NCBI GenBank assembly: GCA_945869955.1
Contig: CAMBQP010000004.1
Coordinates: 1-64,000 of the forward strand
Direction of reading: 5' to 3'
DNA from: Schlesneria paludicola DSM 18645
Lineage (GTDB): Bacteria > Planctomycetota > Planctomycetia > Planctomycetales > Planctomycetaceae
DNA length: 64,000 nucleotides
The position numbers and the translations under genes were made by a program. Positions 12,299 to 21,633 of this stretch are shown in pieces (position 1 is the stretch's first letter; each line of letters starts with the position of its first letter). The notes beneath the pieces are model-generated. The model was not told where the DNA came from. It made no database searches and worked only from the letters and a program-made list of their open reading frames with translations.

Positions 12299-12443
12299 CA
12301 CGGACCGCAAATCCCGCTAGAGTCTTTGGTGATGATCTGGTGTGGATGATCTTGTCACGCAACGGTGCAGGATGAGATCTTTCGCTTGCCAGTCGTTCGC
12401 AGCACTGAAATTGACCTCAGGACTATTCGTTGGAGCCCGCCAA

Positions 12444-15230
12444 ATGATCGTACGTCTGCGCTGTCTATTCCTTGTGCTGGGGCTGTCCGTTCCGCTTTCG
12501 AGCCTGATGGCTGCCGACGCAACGCAGCCTCACCCCCGGATTCCCGGATTCGAACGGTTTTATGCGGGAACGCGGGACAAGCCGAAGAGCGAAGACGAAG
12601 AACCGGTCAAGCTCGATCCGGTCACCGGCGGACGCATCTTGCTGGGTGAGTTGAACTGCACGTCGTGCCATGCGGTGGCCGAGGGGACCAGGAAGCAACT
12701 CACACCCAAGCAGGCACCCATCCTGGATGGGATCGGCAGTCGGGTCAAAGTGGACTGGCTGCGTGGTTATTTGGCCAACCCGCATGCGTCCAAGCCGGGG
12801 ACCACAATGCCGGATTTGATTTCCGCCTTGCCGGAAGCGGCGCGCGAGTCCACGATCGAGGCACTGACTCATTTTCTGGCATCCACGGGGAGTGTTCCCG
12901 AGGCGCATTCCAATCCGACCGCGGCCAAGAAGGGTGAGGGGCTGTTCCGAACCGTGGGCTGCCTGGCCTGCCACAATTCTCAGGCGGAAAACAGCCCCGA
13001 CCTGGCGACGTCGGTGACGCTCCCCGACTTGTCGAAGAAGTACTCGGCCCCCAGCCTGATGGCCTTTCTGAAAGATCCGCTGAAAGTCCGACCATCAGGT
13101 CGGATGCCGGCACTTGGATTGAGCGACGAGGATTACCAGAGCCTGGCACATTATTTTGTGCGGGGTGGCCAGTTGACAGTGAATGCCAAATTTCAGGTGT
13201 ATCATGGTCAATGGAATAAATTGCCGACGTTTGCCGACTTGAAAGCGGTGAGTGAAGGGGAGTCTGCTGGGTTTGATGTTTCTGTGGCAGGACGAGCGGG
13301 TGATTATGCCATCCGGTTCAGTTCGCACCTGCAGATTGCCAAAGCGGGCGAATACCAGTTTGTGCTCGGCTCGGATGACGGCAGCAAGCTGATCATTGAT
13401 GACGAGTTGGTCGCCGATTGCGATGGGATTCACCCGCACCAAACGGTGGAAGGGCGCAAGAAACTGGATGCCGGTTTTCATCGAGTCGTGGTCGAATACT
13501 TTCAGGGGGGGGGCGAGGCAACATTGGATGTGCTGATTGCCGGACAGGGATTGGCGCAACAACCCTTAGCGGGATTTCTGTTTCTCGAGCCGAAAGTCCC
13601 TGCCGCCTCTCCGGATAAAGCAACGTTTATCCTCGATGCGGGGTTAGTCGACAAAGGTCGGCAGTTGTTTTCCACGATCGGTTGTGCATCATGTCATACG
13701 CTGACGATCGAGGGGAAAGCGATTGCCTCGGAACTGAAGGCCAAGCCATTGGCGGAAGTGGCGGCCAATACCGGTTGCCTGGCGGAAAAGGTGAGTGGCA
13801 AAGCGCCGCGGTATGGGCTGAACCTGGTGCAACGCAGCGCGCTGAACCTGGCGCTGAAACCGGCACCTGCCGAGTTGGCTGCGGAAACCGTTCATCGGAC
13901 GCTGGCGACACTGAACTGTTATGCCTGTCACCAGCGCGACCAGTTGGGTGGTGTCGAGGAAGCACGGGACAGCGTGTTTGAATCGCGGCAGAAAGAGATG
14001 GGAGACGAAGGTCGGCTTCCCCCGATCTTGACCGGCGTGGGCGACAAGCTGCGTCAGGATTGGATGCGGCATGTGCTGCATAACTCGGCCAATGACCGCA
14101 AAGAGTATATGGTCACCCGCATGCCGAAGTTCGGGCCGAACAACGTCGAGCCCCTGGTGACACTGTTCGAGCAGGTGGATCTGAAACCCGATACGATGCC
14201 AAAAGCCAATTTCTCGGAACCCGATTATCGCGTCAAAGCGGCGGGTCGGCATATGGTGGGGGGACAGTCATTGTCCTGTATCAAGTGTCATGACTTTGGT
14301 CCGCACCCTTCGACGGGTATTCGAGCGATCAATTTGACGACGATGAATCAGCGATTACGACCCGATTGGTTTTATCGTTATGTGCTGGATCCTCAGGCCT
14401 ATCGCCGTGGAACACGCATGCCCGCTCCGTGGCCTTTTGGCCAGACGACGGTTCGGGATCTGTTGAATGCCGATGTTAATCAGCAAGTGCAGGCGGTCTG
14501 GTTGTATCTGGCGGATCGTGACAAGGCACCAGTCCCGGTGGGACTGGTCCGTGAACCGATGGAGTTGAAGCCGACGACGGAACCGGTGATTTATCGCAAC
14601 TTTATCGAAGGTGCAGGAAGTCGCGCGATTGGTGTCGGCTACCCTGAAGGGGTGAATATCGCCTTTGATGCGAACGACATGCGAATGGCAATGATCTGGC
14701 ACGGAGCATTTATTGATGCCTCGCGTCACTGGACCGGCCGTGGAGTCGGTTTTGAGGCACCGCTGGGTGACGATATTTTGCCGTTACCAAGCCACGCCCC
14801 GCTGGTGGTTCTCGATCAACCCGATCGAGAATTCGCCTCAGGGCAGGCTCGTGAGGGGGGATATAAGTTTCTGGGCTATCGTCTGGACGAACAGCAGCGT
14901 CCGGTGTTCCGGTATTCTCTTCCTGGCCTGATGGTGACGGACCATCCGATTCCCGTGAAGGGGGCTGGAAAGTATCCGACGTTGAAGAGGGTGTTGAGCT
15001 TTGAAGGGACGGCGGACACGAGTCAGCTGTGGTACCGAGCGGCGGCGACCGGCAAAATTGAATCGCTGGGCCAGCGTCGTTATCGAATTGACGGGGTCTG
15101 GACGATGGAGATTGGTGGTAGCGGGGCTGAAGAACCTCGAATTCGCGAATCGGCCGGGAAGCAGGAACTGTTGATTCCGGTCCGGTTAAAGAATGGGAAG
15201 GCCGAGATCACACAGCATTATGTGTGGTGA
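12444..15230 (+). CDS. Secreted multi-CxxCH c-type cytochrome with PA14-like domain
   Basis: Signal peptide MIVRLRCLFLVLGLSVPLSSLMAAD; CTSCH, CLACH, CASCH, CYACH, CIKCH motifs; PA14-like AGEYQFVLGSDDGSKLIIDDELVADCDG. ORF track starts at 12342. Confidence 0.85.
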   Translation: MIVRLRCLFLVLGLSVPLSSLMAADATQPHPRIPGFERFYAGTRDKPKSEDEEPVKLDPVTGGRILLGELNCTSCHAVAEGTRKQLTPKQAPILDGIGSRVKVDWLRGYLANPHASKPGTTMPDLISALPEAARESTIEALTHFLASTGSVPEAHSNPTAAKKGEGLFRTVGCLACHNSQAENSPDLATSVTLPDLSKKYSAPSLMAFLKDPLKVRPSGRMPALGLSDEDYQSLAHYFVRGGQLTVNAKFQVYHGQWNKLPTFADLKAVSEGESAGFDVSVAGRAGDYAIRFSSHLQIAKAGEYQFVLGSDDGSKLIIDDELVADCDGIHPHQTVEGRKKLDAGFHRVVVEYFQGGGEATLDVLIAGQGLAQQPLAGFLFLEPKVPAASPDKATFILDAGLVDKGRQLFSTIGCASCHTLTIEGKAIASELKAKPLAEVAANTGCLAEKVSGKAPRYGLNLVQRSALNLALKPAPAELAAETVHRTLATLNCYACHQRDQLGGVEEARDSVFESRQKEMGDEGRLPPILTGVGDKLRQDWMRHVLHNSANDRKEYMVTRMPKFGPNNVEPLVTLFEQVDLKPDTMPKANFSEPDYRVKAAGRHMVGGQSLSCIKCHDFGPHPSTGIRAINLTTMNQRLRPDWFYRYVLDPQAYRRGTRMPAPWPFGQTTVRDLLNADVNQQVQAVWLYLADRDKAPVPVGLVREPMELKPTTEPVIYRNFIEGAGSRAIGVGYPEGVNIAFDANDMRMAMIWHGAFIDASRHWTGRGVGFEAPLGDDILPLPSHAPLVVLDQPDREFASGQAREGGYKFLGYRLDEQQRPVFRYSLPGLMVTDHPIPVKGAGKYPTLKRVLSFEGTADTSQLWYRAAATGKIESLGQRRYRIDGVWTMEIGGSGAEEPRIRESAGKQELLIPVRLKNGKAEITQHYVW

Positions 15231-15422
15231 AACGGTGGGATGCCGTTTGGTGAATCAATGCGATCACAATAAGTGAAACTTTGAGGTCTTCAACTGATTA
15301 GGTCGAGGAGCGATAGGTTTTCCAGAGCGGATCGCAATAAATCGCTGGAGCCCTGTGCTGATCGGCCGCACGATCAACGGGGGAGGTCGAGACGACTGAC
15401 CAGTGACAGAGCCCCAACGAAG

Positions 15423-15532
15423 AATCGATTCCAACAAGAGTAGTCGGCTGAAAGCGTAGGCGCTCGCCCGAGGAAAGCCATCAGACCATCCTCAGCTACA
15501 CCTCCAGCCGACTATTCTTGGTGGAATCGATC
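15423..15532. other. Imperfect inverted repeat with nested hairpins; candidate structured RNA or DNA element
   Basis: 15423-15449 (aatcgattccaacaagagtagtcggct) versus reverse complement of 15506-15532: 24/27 match; inside, GTAG/CTAC (15456-15459/15496-15499), GGCGctCGCC and GAGGA/TCCTC (15470-15474/15489-15493) can pair. Confidence 0.6.
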
Positions 15533-15763
15533 GAAAGCAAGTTCGTTGTCAGGCTCATGCCAAAGACAAAGTTCAAATCTTTTCGACACAATCACTTAGA
15601 GCAATGGCTGTGCCGCGATTTCGTGGTCAGGAATGGAATTGTCGAACTCGCTATTTTTCAGGTGAGAAAACCGTTTGTGTCCGTTGTTCCATCACAGAAA
15701 TTGATAGCAGTTATGCACGGAGGTAAGGCAACGTTGCCTGATATCAGCTCACGTGGTCAAAGC

Positions 15764-16858
15764 TTAGTTCGTGGATTTGAATTTAGTGACATCGTAGTAA
15801 CGGTAGGTTCCACCGTTCTGTCGTGAGAGTCGCCTGAGAAAGTTTTTGGGCGAGGCGGTGTCCGAGACTTCCGGTCCGACACCGAATTCGATCGAATGAA
15901 TGCGGGTGGTTTTGTTGTTCAAGTTCTTGAGCGAGACCAGTTCACCTTCGTAGATCGGCGGTTCTTGCGCATCGGTCAGAAAGAAAATCACATCCGGTCG
16001 CAGTCGTAAGGCCATTTCGAGGGCGGGAACGTGCTGGGTTCCAGTGCCAGGTTGAATCCCGGCAATCTTCTGCTTGGCGAGCGTCTTGTGGATTTCGGTT
16101 GCGGCGTAGAGTTGTGGTTTGTGGACATCGCGCAGATGCAGTACGGTGGGCCGATCATCGTAAAAGATAATTAGGAACTGCTGATGAGCGTCGAGGGCTT
16201 GCAGGCTGGAGACGAGTGCATTTTTGGCGACCTGCATCGAATTATTACTCGTCATACTTCCGGACGCATCAATGACAAACACCACCTTTGATCCCTGATC
16301 TTGTGCCCCCATGAAGGCGGCACCCGGAATTCCGCCGACTGTTCCCGTTGCGGCCGGCCGTTGGCCACCCCCCGAGTTGACCGGTTGACGGGGATCCATC
16401 ACCGTCGGGCCGGCAGGAAGATTGACTCCAGGTCCAATCCGTGCGGTGGAGTCGGCTTTTGGCAGCGTGGTCTCGACGGGGGGTTGATCTGGAGTGGCGC
16501 TCACGGGCGTCAGCGCGTCTTTGGAAGAAGTGGACTCGACCAACACGTCGGTGGGAGCTCCCTCTTTGGCTTCCCCTGGAACGACCGCATCGGGATTATC
16601 GCCGACTTCTTTCAGGACGATCCCGACTTCGCGGGATTCTTCTTTACCGAAGCCAACCGGGGCTTTGTCACAGCTTCGCAGCGTGATGGCAAAGATCAGT
16701 AACAAGACCCCATGTGCGGCCAGGGATAAGAGACTCGACAGCAGAATGGCATGGGGAATCCAGTCGGGCAGACTGCGGGTGGCATTTGGGGGAGTCGGGA
16801 GGGAGAGACGGTTTTTGCCCGCGATCCGCTGCTGTCCAGAGGCATTCGCAGGCTCCAC
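15764..16858 (-). CDS. von Willebrand factor type A domain membrane protein
   Basis: VVFVIDASGSMTSNNSM MIDAS motif, N-terminal TM, ...VIFFLTDAQEPP. Confidence 0.85.
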   Translation of the reverse strand: MEPANASGQQRIAGKNRLSLPTPPNATRSLPDWIPHAILLSSLLSLAAHGVLLLIFAITLRSCDKAPVGFGKEESREVGIVLKEVGDNPDAVVPGEAKEGAPTDVLVESTSSKDALTPVSATPDQPPVETTLPKADSTARIGPGVNLPAGPTVMDPRQPVNSGGGQRPAATGTVGGIPGAAFMGAQDQGSKVVFVIDASGSMTSNNSMQVAKNALVSSLQALDAHQQFLIIFYDDRPTVLHLRDVHKPQLYAATEIHKTLAKQKIAGIQPGTGTQHVPALEMALRLRPDVIFFLTDAQEPPIYEGELVSLKNLNNKTTRIHSIEFGVGPEVSDTASPKNFLRRLSRQNGGTYRYYDVTKFKSTN

Positions 16859-18409: not shown

Positions 18410-18646
18410 CCGAACTTTTCGAGATCGTGGCGAGGGTCGGGTGTGATTCTGGCGACACCGAAGTTCGTTGAATTTCCAAGAATAAAAGCATCGCTGGCTG
18501 TTCGCGTAAAACGCCTTTGGTTCCTCCGTCGTTTGGTTGCAGTAGAACGACACCCGATACCCGCCGATCGCGATTTTTGCTAGAATCTGCGGAAATCAGT
18601 GGCGGGATTAGGGACGACGGCGGCAGAGAACAGGGGTCTTTTTGAC

Positions 18647-20098
18647 ATGCTGACCAAACTCGTGTTGAAGAACTTTAAGCAGTTCACCGAGGTCGAGATT
18701 GAACTGGGGAATCCGGTGGTCTTTGTCGGCCCTAATAATTCCGGCAAGACGACAGCACTCCAGGCATTGGCCCTCTGGGATATCGGACTCAGGCGATGGA
18801 ATGAAAAGCGACACGGGAAAGCGTCTCCTCAAAAGCGACCGGGCGTTACCATCAACCGGAAGGATCTGATTGCGATTCCAGTTCCTGAGGCGAGATTGTT
18901 ATGGCGGGACTTGCACGTTCGCGACGTCCGCCGAGCGAGTGGCAGCAGCCAAGAGACGCGCAACGTTCGGATCGACATCGTGGTCGAAGGGGTCACCGAC
19001 GACAAAGAGTGGAAGTGCGGGCTGGAATTTGACTATGCCAACGAAGAATCCTTTTACTGTCGACCGATGAGGCTCACTGAAAGCAAAGACGCCGAACGCA
19101 TGCCGATCCCCGAAGAGGCATCTCGGATTCGGCTTGCATTCCTACCCCCCATGTCAGGACTGGCCGCAAATGAAACCAAGTTGGATCCGGGTGCCATCAA
19201 TCTGCGGATTGGTGAGGGGCGTACGGCCGAAGTGCTACGAAATCTGTGCTATCAGATCCTGACAGGGCCAGAGGGACAAAATGCCTGGCGCGAGCTGACC
19301 GGACGAATTCAGTCGCTGTTTGGTGTCACAATCAACGAGCCCGTGTACATTCCGGAACGGGGCGAGATCCAGATGGAATATCAGACACGAGGTGGAATTC
19401 AACTCGACCTCTCCTGCTCTGGCCGTGGACTGCAGCAAACGTTGCTGGTGCTGGCGCACTTGCAGGTCAATCCACAGTCGGTCCTCCTGCTGGATGAACC
19501 GGATGCCCATTTAGAAATTCTACGCCAGCGGGAGATCTATCAGGTGCTGTGTTCCTCGGCCGGGAAAAGCGGTTCCCAGGTCATTGCCGCAAGTCATTCG
19601 GAAATCATTCTCGAAGAAGCGGCTGGACGGGATGTTGTTGTGGCGTTTGTCGGTAAGCCGCATCGGATTGACAGTCGCAGTTCGCAACTGCTCAAGTCCC
19701 TTAAAGAAATTGGCTACGAAGACTATTTTCAATCCGAACAGACGGGGTGGGTGCTTTACCTTGAAGGTTCAACAGACCTTGAGATCCTGCGGGGTTTTGC
19801 CGAGCGACTAGGGCATCCCGCCGGGGAGGTGCTGCAGCGTCCCTTTGTGAAATACGTCCAACAGCCACAGAAGGCCAGGGATCATTTTTACGGCCTGCAA
19901 GAAGCCAAACCGGATCTGCGTGGAATGTTGCTGCTTGACCGGCAGGACCGTGAGTTACTAACAGGCGATATTCTCAGGGGATATGCCTGGAAACAGCTTG
20001 CAGTCTATGTACCGAACGAGTTGATTGATCCAGAAGTGAGCCACGTTCTGGATCTGATTCTGGAAACCAGCCGTCAGGCCCGACCCCGACTCGGATAG
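18647..20098 (+). CDS. OLD-like AAA ATPase with TOPRIM-like C-terminal region
   Basis: MLTKLVLKNFKQFTEVEIELGNPVVFVGPNNSGKTT Walker A, LLLDEPDAHLEILRQREIY Walker B, YLEGSTDLEIL and LLLDRQDREL TOPRIM-like motifs. ORF track starts at 18599. Confidence 0.75.
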   Translation: MLTKLVLKNFKQFTEVEIELGNPVVFVGPNNSGKTTALQALALWDIGLRRWNEKRHGKASPQKRPGVTINRKDLIAIPVPEARLLWRDLHVRDVRRASGSSQETRNVRIDIVVEGVTDDKEWKCGLEFDYANEESFYCRPMRLTESKDAERMPIPEEASRIRLAFLPPMSGLAANETKLDPGAINLRIGEGRTAEVLRNLCYQILTGPEGQNAWRELTGRIQSLFGVTINEPVYIPERGEIQMEYQTRGGIQLDLSCSGRGLQQTLLVLAHLQVNPQSVLLLDEPDAHLEILRQREIYQVLCSSAGKSGSQVIAASHSEIILEEAAGRDVVVAFVGKPHRIDSRSSQLLKSLKEIGYEDYFQSEQTGWVLYLEGSTDLEILRGFAERLGHPAGEVLQRPFVKYVQQPQKARDHFYGLQEAKPDLRGMLLLDRQDRELLTGDILRGYAWKQLAVYVPNELIDPEVSHVLDLILETSRQARPRLG

Positions 20099-21246: not shown

Positions 21247-21633
21247 AAATCCGGACTAACGGACAGGTGTGGGGAACGTCTTCTTTCCCGGTCTTCAAGA
21301 CCATGAGTCGAATGAATTTTCGCGGACAACGAAAGAGAATCTAATCAATGAGATTCTCTTTCGTTGTCAAGAAACCGTCCGACAGTGAAATTATCGGCAA
21401 GGAAACTCGGAAAATTGAATGGAGTTTGGAATTATTGTGTTCGGCACGTTTTTTGTTTGCGTGGATTGTTGGGGCGGATTGCTGGCGAATGGAGCTGTGG
21501 TGGCCGGGAAACTGACCGATTGAATTGAGAAACCGTGATTGGAACGAGATGTTTTTGATCGTTTTTGTTACAATCCATCAAAGATCCTTTGATTGGATTG
21601 AAGAAGAACGACCGAGCAGTCACCGGAAAAATC

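Follow-up and report, generated by a model that had tools for sequence, protein, structure and literature searches.

A candidate family of sigma-54-dependent, probably nitrogen-responsive small RNAs in the Planctomycetaceae

An inverted repeat between two convergent genes of Schlesneria paludicola DSM 18645 is, judged by comparison of its homologues, a small RNA gene of the minus strand that had not been catalogued before, with predicted expression. The repeat lies in a stretch of 64,000 nucleotides at the start of contig CAMBQP010000004.1, referred to here as the window, and all coordinates are given on that stretch. The best reading of the data is that the gene would represent a new small RNA family that depends on sigma-54 and probably responds to nitrogen. 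We regard it as fairly probable that this is a stand-alone minus-strand gene, controlled by an NtrC-like activator together with sigma-54, linked to nitrogen and acting in trans.

Results

The inverted repeat and its fold

The longest close inverted repeat of the window, as found by a repeat search, has 36-nt arms at 15424-15459 and 15496-15531 that are 86% complementary. The RNA fold of positions 15413-15542 was calculated at -52.8 kcal/mol, whereas shuffles averaged -29.1 (z -6.4; 0 of 200 shuffles equalled it), and the fold of the whole predicted minus-strand transcript gave a z of -7.3. A preliminary description of this DNA had claimed such a repeat within a convergent gap of about 530 bp, and both claims are borne out. 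The gap runs from a plus-strand gene (12342-15230) that encodes cytochrome c and PA14 domains to a VWA-domain gene on the minus strand (15764-16858). The inner pairings that had been proposed, GTAG/CTAC, GGCG-ct-CGCC and GAGGA/TCCTC, correspond respectively to the inner part of helix P1, to P3 and to P2 of the conserved structure described below. The description assumed the plus strand, however, which was the wrong one, and thereby missed a terminator-like end and a sigma-54 promoter. Its statement that no T-tract follows the stem is true of the plus strand but not of the minus strand, where CTACTCTTGTT follows the stem in the window and real T-tracts are found in relatives.

Homologues define the strand and structure of the RNA

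A blastn search of 99 relatives detected the element in 13 of 14 genomes of the same genus; outside the genus, about 14 more family genomes gave matches at E values under approximately 0.001. Self-complementarity of the element scattered the matches over both strands, and all copies were then set in register on the GGCGAGCGCC segment. This yielded one consistent RNA, with the core of the window copy on the minus strand at 15431-15522 (covariance model match, 79.9 bits). Among the non-Watson-Crick cells of 72 distinct sequences, G-U outnumbered A-C by 300 to 37 on the minus-strand reading, and this excess fixes the strand of the RNA. A run of at least four Ts at the 3' end was present at 43 of 63 loci on the RNA strand, compared with 4 of 63 on the opposite strand.

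The RNA consists of a long stem, P1, leading to a three-way junction with a hairpin, P2, and a near-invariant mini-hairpin or lateral bulge, P3. The 5' strand of P1 (GTCGGCTGGAGGTGTAG) lies at 15496-15512 and its 3' strand (CTACGCTTTCAGCCGAC) at 15443-15459, while P2 occupies 15468-15495 (helices 2-4 of alignment A4) and P3, with the sequence GCGAGCGC, occupies 15460-15467, all on the minus strand. Covariation, which had been named in the preliminary description as a check, was extensive. Two-sided changes were seen in 21 of 36 pairs with 28 sequences, and in 31 of 36 pairs with the 74 sequences of A4 (455 such cells). In A4, 91.8% of cells were paired, compared with 33-50% for slid partners; this alignment was fitted to the covariance model and is thus biased towards the structure, and the unfitted MAFFT alignment A2 agrees with it. 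P1 with its outer extension, frequently carrying a one-base bulge, comprises 24 pairs, of which 23 have two-sided changes (92% of cells paired; 72 distinct sequences). P2 is variable in sequence yet paired, with two-sided changes in 8 of 10 pairs and 100% of cells paired in the basal four. Compensatory changes therefore support P1 and P2, whereas P3, of the form GC[GAGC]GC, is the most conserved segment and so nearly invariant across the 72 distinct sequences that its two pairs are hardly tested by covariation. Its outer pair is broken in seven sequences (the GGACGAGCGCC type), and P3 may act as a lateral bulge rather than as a hairpin.

Both ends of the predicted transcript vary. The 3' tail (TACTCTTGTTGGA, 15430-15442, minus strand) is a terminator-like, T-rich end that is weak in the S. 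paludicola genome and strong in relatives; in the window, the T-tract is interrupted and the outer stem contains mismatches, and this copy may terminate poorly. At the other end, the promoter position predicts a 5' extension at 15523-15589 (minus strand). In Schlesneria this extension is about 60-75 nt long and has a conserved GTCGAAAWGACTTCGAC hairpin, which is degenerate in the window. In several other genera the promoter adjoins the core, with the -12 element only 3-30 nt away, so that the extension is short or absent. A conserved small ORF was looked for in the predicted transcript and none was found. Taken together, the homologues, the covariation, the strand-specific G-U signal and the conserved promoter strongly support a noncoding RNA, one of three candidates put forward in the preliminary description. 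The other two, a recombination site and a small mobile element, fared poorly: the G-U asymmetry and the T-tract indicate an RNA, and the element occurs once in the 6.25-Mb genome and mostly once per genome in the family.

Distribution and genomic context

With a covariance model, the RNA was detected in 120 of 170 genomes and 46 of 58 genera of the Planctomycetaceae, the family of Schlesneria; among the good-quality family genomes, 97 of 130 carried it. In a draw across the whole phylum, none was found in the approximately 360 genomes that belong to other families. A second, broader model identified the RNA in 94 family genomes, together with one match outside the family among 398 genomes of the class (G581; 29.7 bits, E 2.6e-4), which is near noise and was not counted. 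Pattern matches in Rheinheimera, Pectobacterium, Testudinibacter and other non-planctomycetes either fail the covariance model or score far below the real ones, and were taken as chance. Phage records gave no match. In G003 the RNA occupies 2599615-2599707. Copy number is usually one per genome; tandem pairs are present in G030 and G203 and extra copies in G008, G037, G142 and G192. The tandem copies lie 24 nt and about 190 nt apart (loci L166 and L167, respectively), apparently behind one promoter region. The RNA was not found in one genome of the same genus (G010; 4.7 Mb, 96% complete), in genera g42, g47 and g82, or in some others, despite the presence of RpoN, and is there either lost or too diverged. 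Some g82 and g47 genomes in which no RNA was detected have the upstream activator site (UAS) and sigma-54 pattern in front of other genes.

In many genera the RNA is located between a divergent MBL-fold hydrolase gene and hemD-hemE-hemG (names assigned by eye from the sequences), which is probably its ancestral location. Schlesneria and other genera have a different gene on one or both sides, with a cytochrome c gene beside the RNA in Schlesneria, and keep the RNA, promoter and UAS. This variation in neighbours argues for a stand-alone RNA gene that probably acts in trans. Neither flanking gene of the window was retained as a functional partner: the cytochrome gene adjoins the RNA only in part of the genus, and the orthologues of the VWA gene sit elsewhere.

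A putative sigma-54 promoter and upstream activator site

A putative sigma-54 promoter, CGGCACAGCCATTGCT, is located upstream of the RNA at 15600-15615 on the minus strand, with a predicted +1 near 15589, 12 nt past the -12 element. It has 10 of 11 consensus positions and is the only exact YGGCAC-N5-TTGCW in the 64 kb. Elements with at least 9 of 11 positions were found upstream of 48 of 63 loci, compared with 2.4% of mononucleotide shuffles and 4 of 63 downstream controls; the 15 loci with no such site belong to genera g24 and g8, some paralogs and G015. Further upstream is a 17-bp inverted repeat, TGCC-N9-GGCA, most often 112-117 bp from the -24 element. In the window this putative enhancer-binding-protein site, TGCCTTACCTCCGTGCA, is at 15714-15730 (minus strand) and starts 115 bp ahead of the -24 element. 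When gaps of 7 to 11 were tested, only a gap of 9 was strongly enriched, with 8 of 8 positions matched in 29% of loci and in approximately 0% of shuffles. The NtrC site, TGC-N11-GCA, is also 17 bp long.

A joint score of UAS and promoter of at least 16 of 19 was reached by 31 of 62 loci (17 of 19 in the window) and by 0 of 2,480 dinucleotide shuffles, a result that gauges the strength of the motifs and is no independent discovery, since they were first spotted by eye in the same sequences, and in which the loci share descent and so are not independent trials. Each of two paralogs in G142 has a UAS and a promoter to itself. The S. paludicola genome encodes RpoN (G000:C33), as do 156 of 170 family genomes, some genomes that lack the RNA among them. 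A conserved -24/-12 promoter, a UAS motif at a typical distance and rpoN in the genome are what would be expected of a sigma-54-dependent small RNA. A perfect palindrome, AGGCAACGTTGCCT, at 15727-15740 overlaps the upstream end of the UAS and may be a further regulator site that is peculiar to this genome. Across the whole window there are 15 sites within one mismatch of YGGCAC-N5-TTGCW, compared with 4.9 expected, and sigma-54 promoters may be abundant in the genome.

The promoter architecture is shared with nitrogen genes

In a search separate from the joint score test, the strict pattern TGCC-N9-KGCA...GGCAY-N5-TTGC was sought in the 170 family genomes, giving about 105 matches compared with about 24 for a reversed control pattern (hand count). 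The only match in the S. paludicola genome is the promoter of the RNA. Ammonium transporter (amt) genes lie downstream of 9 of approximately 44 distinct non-RNA loci examined, a subset of the matches with several annotated by eye; the enrichment has a P value of about 7e-21, assuming that amt accounts for 3 of 5,000 genes and ignoring relatedness. Glutamine synthetase III, a Peripla_BP_5 solute-binding protein and a NarK-like MFS transporter are also encoded downstream of strict matches (some assigned by eye), as are proteins with no obvious link to nitrogen, a HAD-IIA phosphatase and an alpha-glucan phosphorylase. Recurrent, unexplained members of this candidate regulon, with examples among loci L272-L321, are the HAD-IIA phosphatase (six genomes), CP-ATPgrasp (three) and a GAF-alpha-glucan phosphorylase, whose site is common to four g81 genomes. 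One co-regulated gene was initially read as ptsP; its full sequence, inspected by eye, is the GAF-alpha-glucan phosphorylase. Several amt genes of Schlesneria have a sigma-54 site and a UAS-like repeat, the UAS match being weaker at the amt gene of S. paludicola itself.

An NtrC-like nitrogen circuit is proposed on the basis of this UAS and promoter shared with amt and other nitrogen genes; the occurrence of the same architecture at known nitrogen genes would be expected of an NtrC regulon. No protein in the genus scored above the ntrC equivalog cut-off, and the 19 NtrC-family matches in the S. paludicola genome are all below it. A recent survey found limited conservation of NtrB/NtrC in Planctomycetota (PMC12316311). 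The specific TGCC-N9-GGCA and -24/-12 signature seems to label a nitrogen regulon, in a phylum for which poor conservation of these regulators had been assumed (PMC12316311).

Comparison with known RNAs

No family of Rfam 15 matched above its gathering cut-off in the window or at 19 homologue-bearing loci, and by E-value the window gave only weak miRNA-type and other chance matches (E 3-9). 6S RNA (RF00013) resembles the planctomycete RNA in being structured, single-copy and closed by a long stem; it has no match at the locus, the 6S gene of the same genome is at G000:C111:2062-2258, and 6S RNA was found in 47 of 59 relatives. The promoter and UAS motifs suggest the control logic of NrsZ. The NrsZ gene is located downstream of ntrBC; no ntrBC was seen adjoining the planctomycete RNA, which belongs to another phylum and is expected to fold differently. 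A passage in PMC9731577, citing Wenner et al. 2014, describes NrsZ of Pseudomonas aeruginosa as an RpoN-dependent, nitrogen-linked small RNA. NsiR4 of cyanobacteria is likewise nitrogen controlled (PMC9731577); it is, however, activated by NtcA and not by sigma-54, in another phylum, and no Rfam family matched the planctomycete RNA. In Enterobacteriaceae, QseF activates the sigma-54 promoter of glmY from upstream sites (PMC6075780), and a lateral bulge of GlmZ is contacted by RapZ (PMC9841335). Both traits have likenesses here, and GlmY acts as a decoy. The present RNA nevertheless differs in structure, has no Rfam match above the gathering score, and shares its promoter with nitrogen genes rather than lying in an amino-sugar context. 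The Rhodopirellula-1 motif is a candidate structured RNA from Proteobacteria and Planctomycetes (PMC2864571), unlike the present RNA, which was found in one planctomycete family only; the two are set apart by description only, as the motif has no listed Rfam accession.

Discussion

The comparisons support the RNA structure, its strand, the promoter and UAS motifs, and an architecture shared with nitrogen genes; from these we infer transcription, a nitrogen response, the identity of the activator, targets, protein binding and U-tract termination. In the proposed model, an NtrC-like enhancer-binding protein would bind the TGCC-N9-GGCA site, and sigma-54 RNA polymerase at the CGGCACAGCCATTGCT promoter would produce a transcript of about 160 nt, or about 100 nt in genera whose promoter adjoins the stem. 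This RNA would fold into the long stem with its three-way junction and end at the stem and U-tract. It would probably accumulate under nitrogen shortage alongside ammonium transporters and act in trans, and the lateral GCGAGCGC junction element may be presented to a protein, with the RNA as a decoy or adaptor.

How the RNA would act is the least certain part of the model. Base pairing is the usual mode of sigma-54 small RNAs, and pairing of the P2 loop, the 5' extension or GCGAGCGC with target mRNAs, as for NrsZ, Qrr and NsiR4, is a possibility to which we give minor weight; it differs from the proposed model in mode of action only. The 5' extension is conserved across the genus Schlesneria, as this mode would suggest. 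On the other hand, the core is almost fully paired, the P2 loop is variable, the 5' extension is short or absent in several genera, and the conserved segment, which is rich in GC, measures only about 8 nt. A nearly all-paired core in which GCGAGCGC is the most conserved element makes presentation to a protein likelier than long antisense action, and at modest odds protein binding may be favoured over antisense pairing. The signal is a separate matter. A sigma-54-dependent small RNA could answer to another enhancer-binding protein and another signal (stress, envelope or motility), with the nitrogen link incidental through a generic UAS. The 19 NtrC-family proteins below the ntrC cut-off leave room for this, as does the same pattern before the HAD-IIA phosphatase and alpha-glucan phosphorylase genes. 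We nonetheless consider it unlikely, as the repeated amt matches, together with glutamine synthetase III, the solute-binding protein and the NarK-like transporter, go far beyond chance for an activator unrelated to nitrogen.

Readings that dispense with a stand-alone regulatory RNA are much harder to reconcile with the data. A cis-regulatory leader or attenuator of the heme operon hemD-hemE-hemG, displaced in some lineages, would be in keeping with the 17 genomes in which hemD follows the RNA in the same orientation, generally 35-190 nt away. At most other loci, however, and in the window, the downstream gene is unrelated or convergent, with RNA, promoter and UAS still conserved; this reading is refuted for the window, where no codirectional gene is within reach, and is very improbable overall. 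More improbable again is a merely complex or bidirectional terminator for the convergent genes: although a stem followed by a T-tract is present between them, a terminator would not be expected to contain a three-way junction and an almost unchanging internal segment, to be conserved beside differing neighbours or to have a conserved sigma-54 promoter upstream. We give almost no credence to a small non-autonomous mobile element or REP-type repeat. The position of the RNA does vary among genera and tandem copies exist in two genomes, but the numerous copies with target-site duplications by which the preliminary description proposed to recognize a MITE were not found, and the G-U bias of the RNA strand would be unexpected of a DNA element.

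Returning to the stand-alone small RNA, a more specific version of the model, to be taken as tentative and rather doubtful, is that of a family-wide nitrogen-stress RNA that uses the near-invariant GCGAGCGC element at the junction to sequester or deliver a protein. If true, it would correspond in planctomycetes to GlmY or CrcZ by its logic, though not by descent, and would be an early output mapped for an NtrC-type sigma-54 circuit in the Planctomycetota. Planctomycetes are known for their unusual cell biology. No published report of this RNA, or of any planctomycete regulatory small RNA of such kind, was found in the open-access literature, and subscription journals may differ. The new RNA family combines strong covariation with a defined promoter and a candidate signal, and its presence in cultured species opens its function to testing.

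Other features of the window

Two further features were recorded downstream of the locus. An AAA ATPase of the OLD/AbiEii type is encoded at 18599-20098 on the plus strand, with weak PADLOC matches to AriA, GajA and NsnB. At 21325-21368 there is a 21-bp inverted repeat, 95% complementary with a 2-nt loop, that is possibly a terminator.
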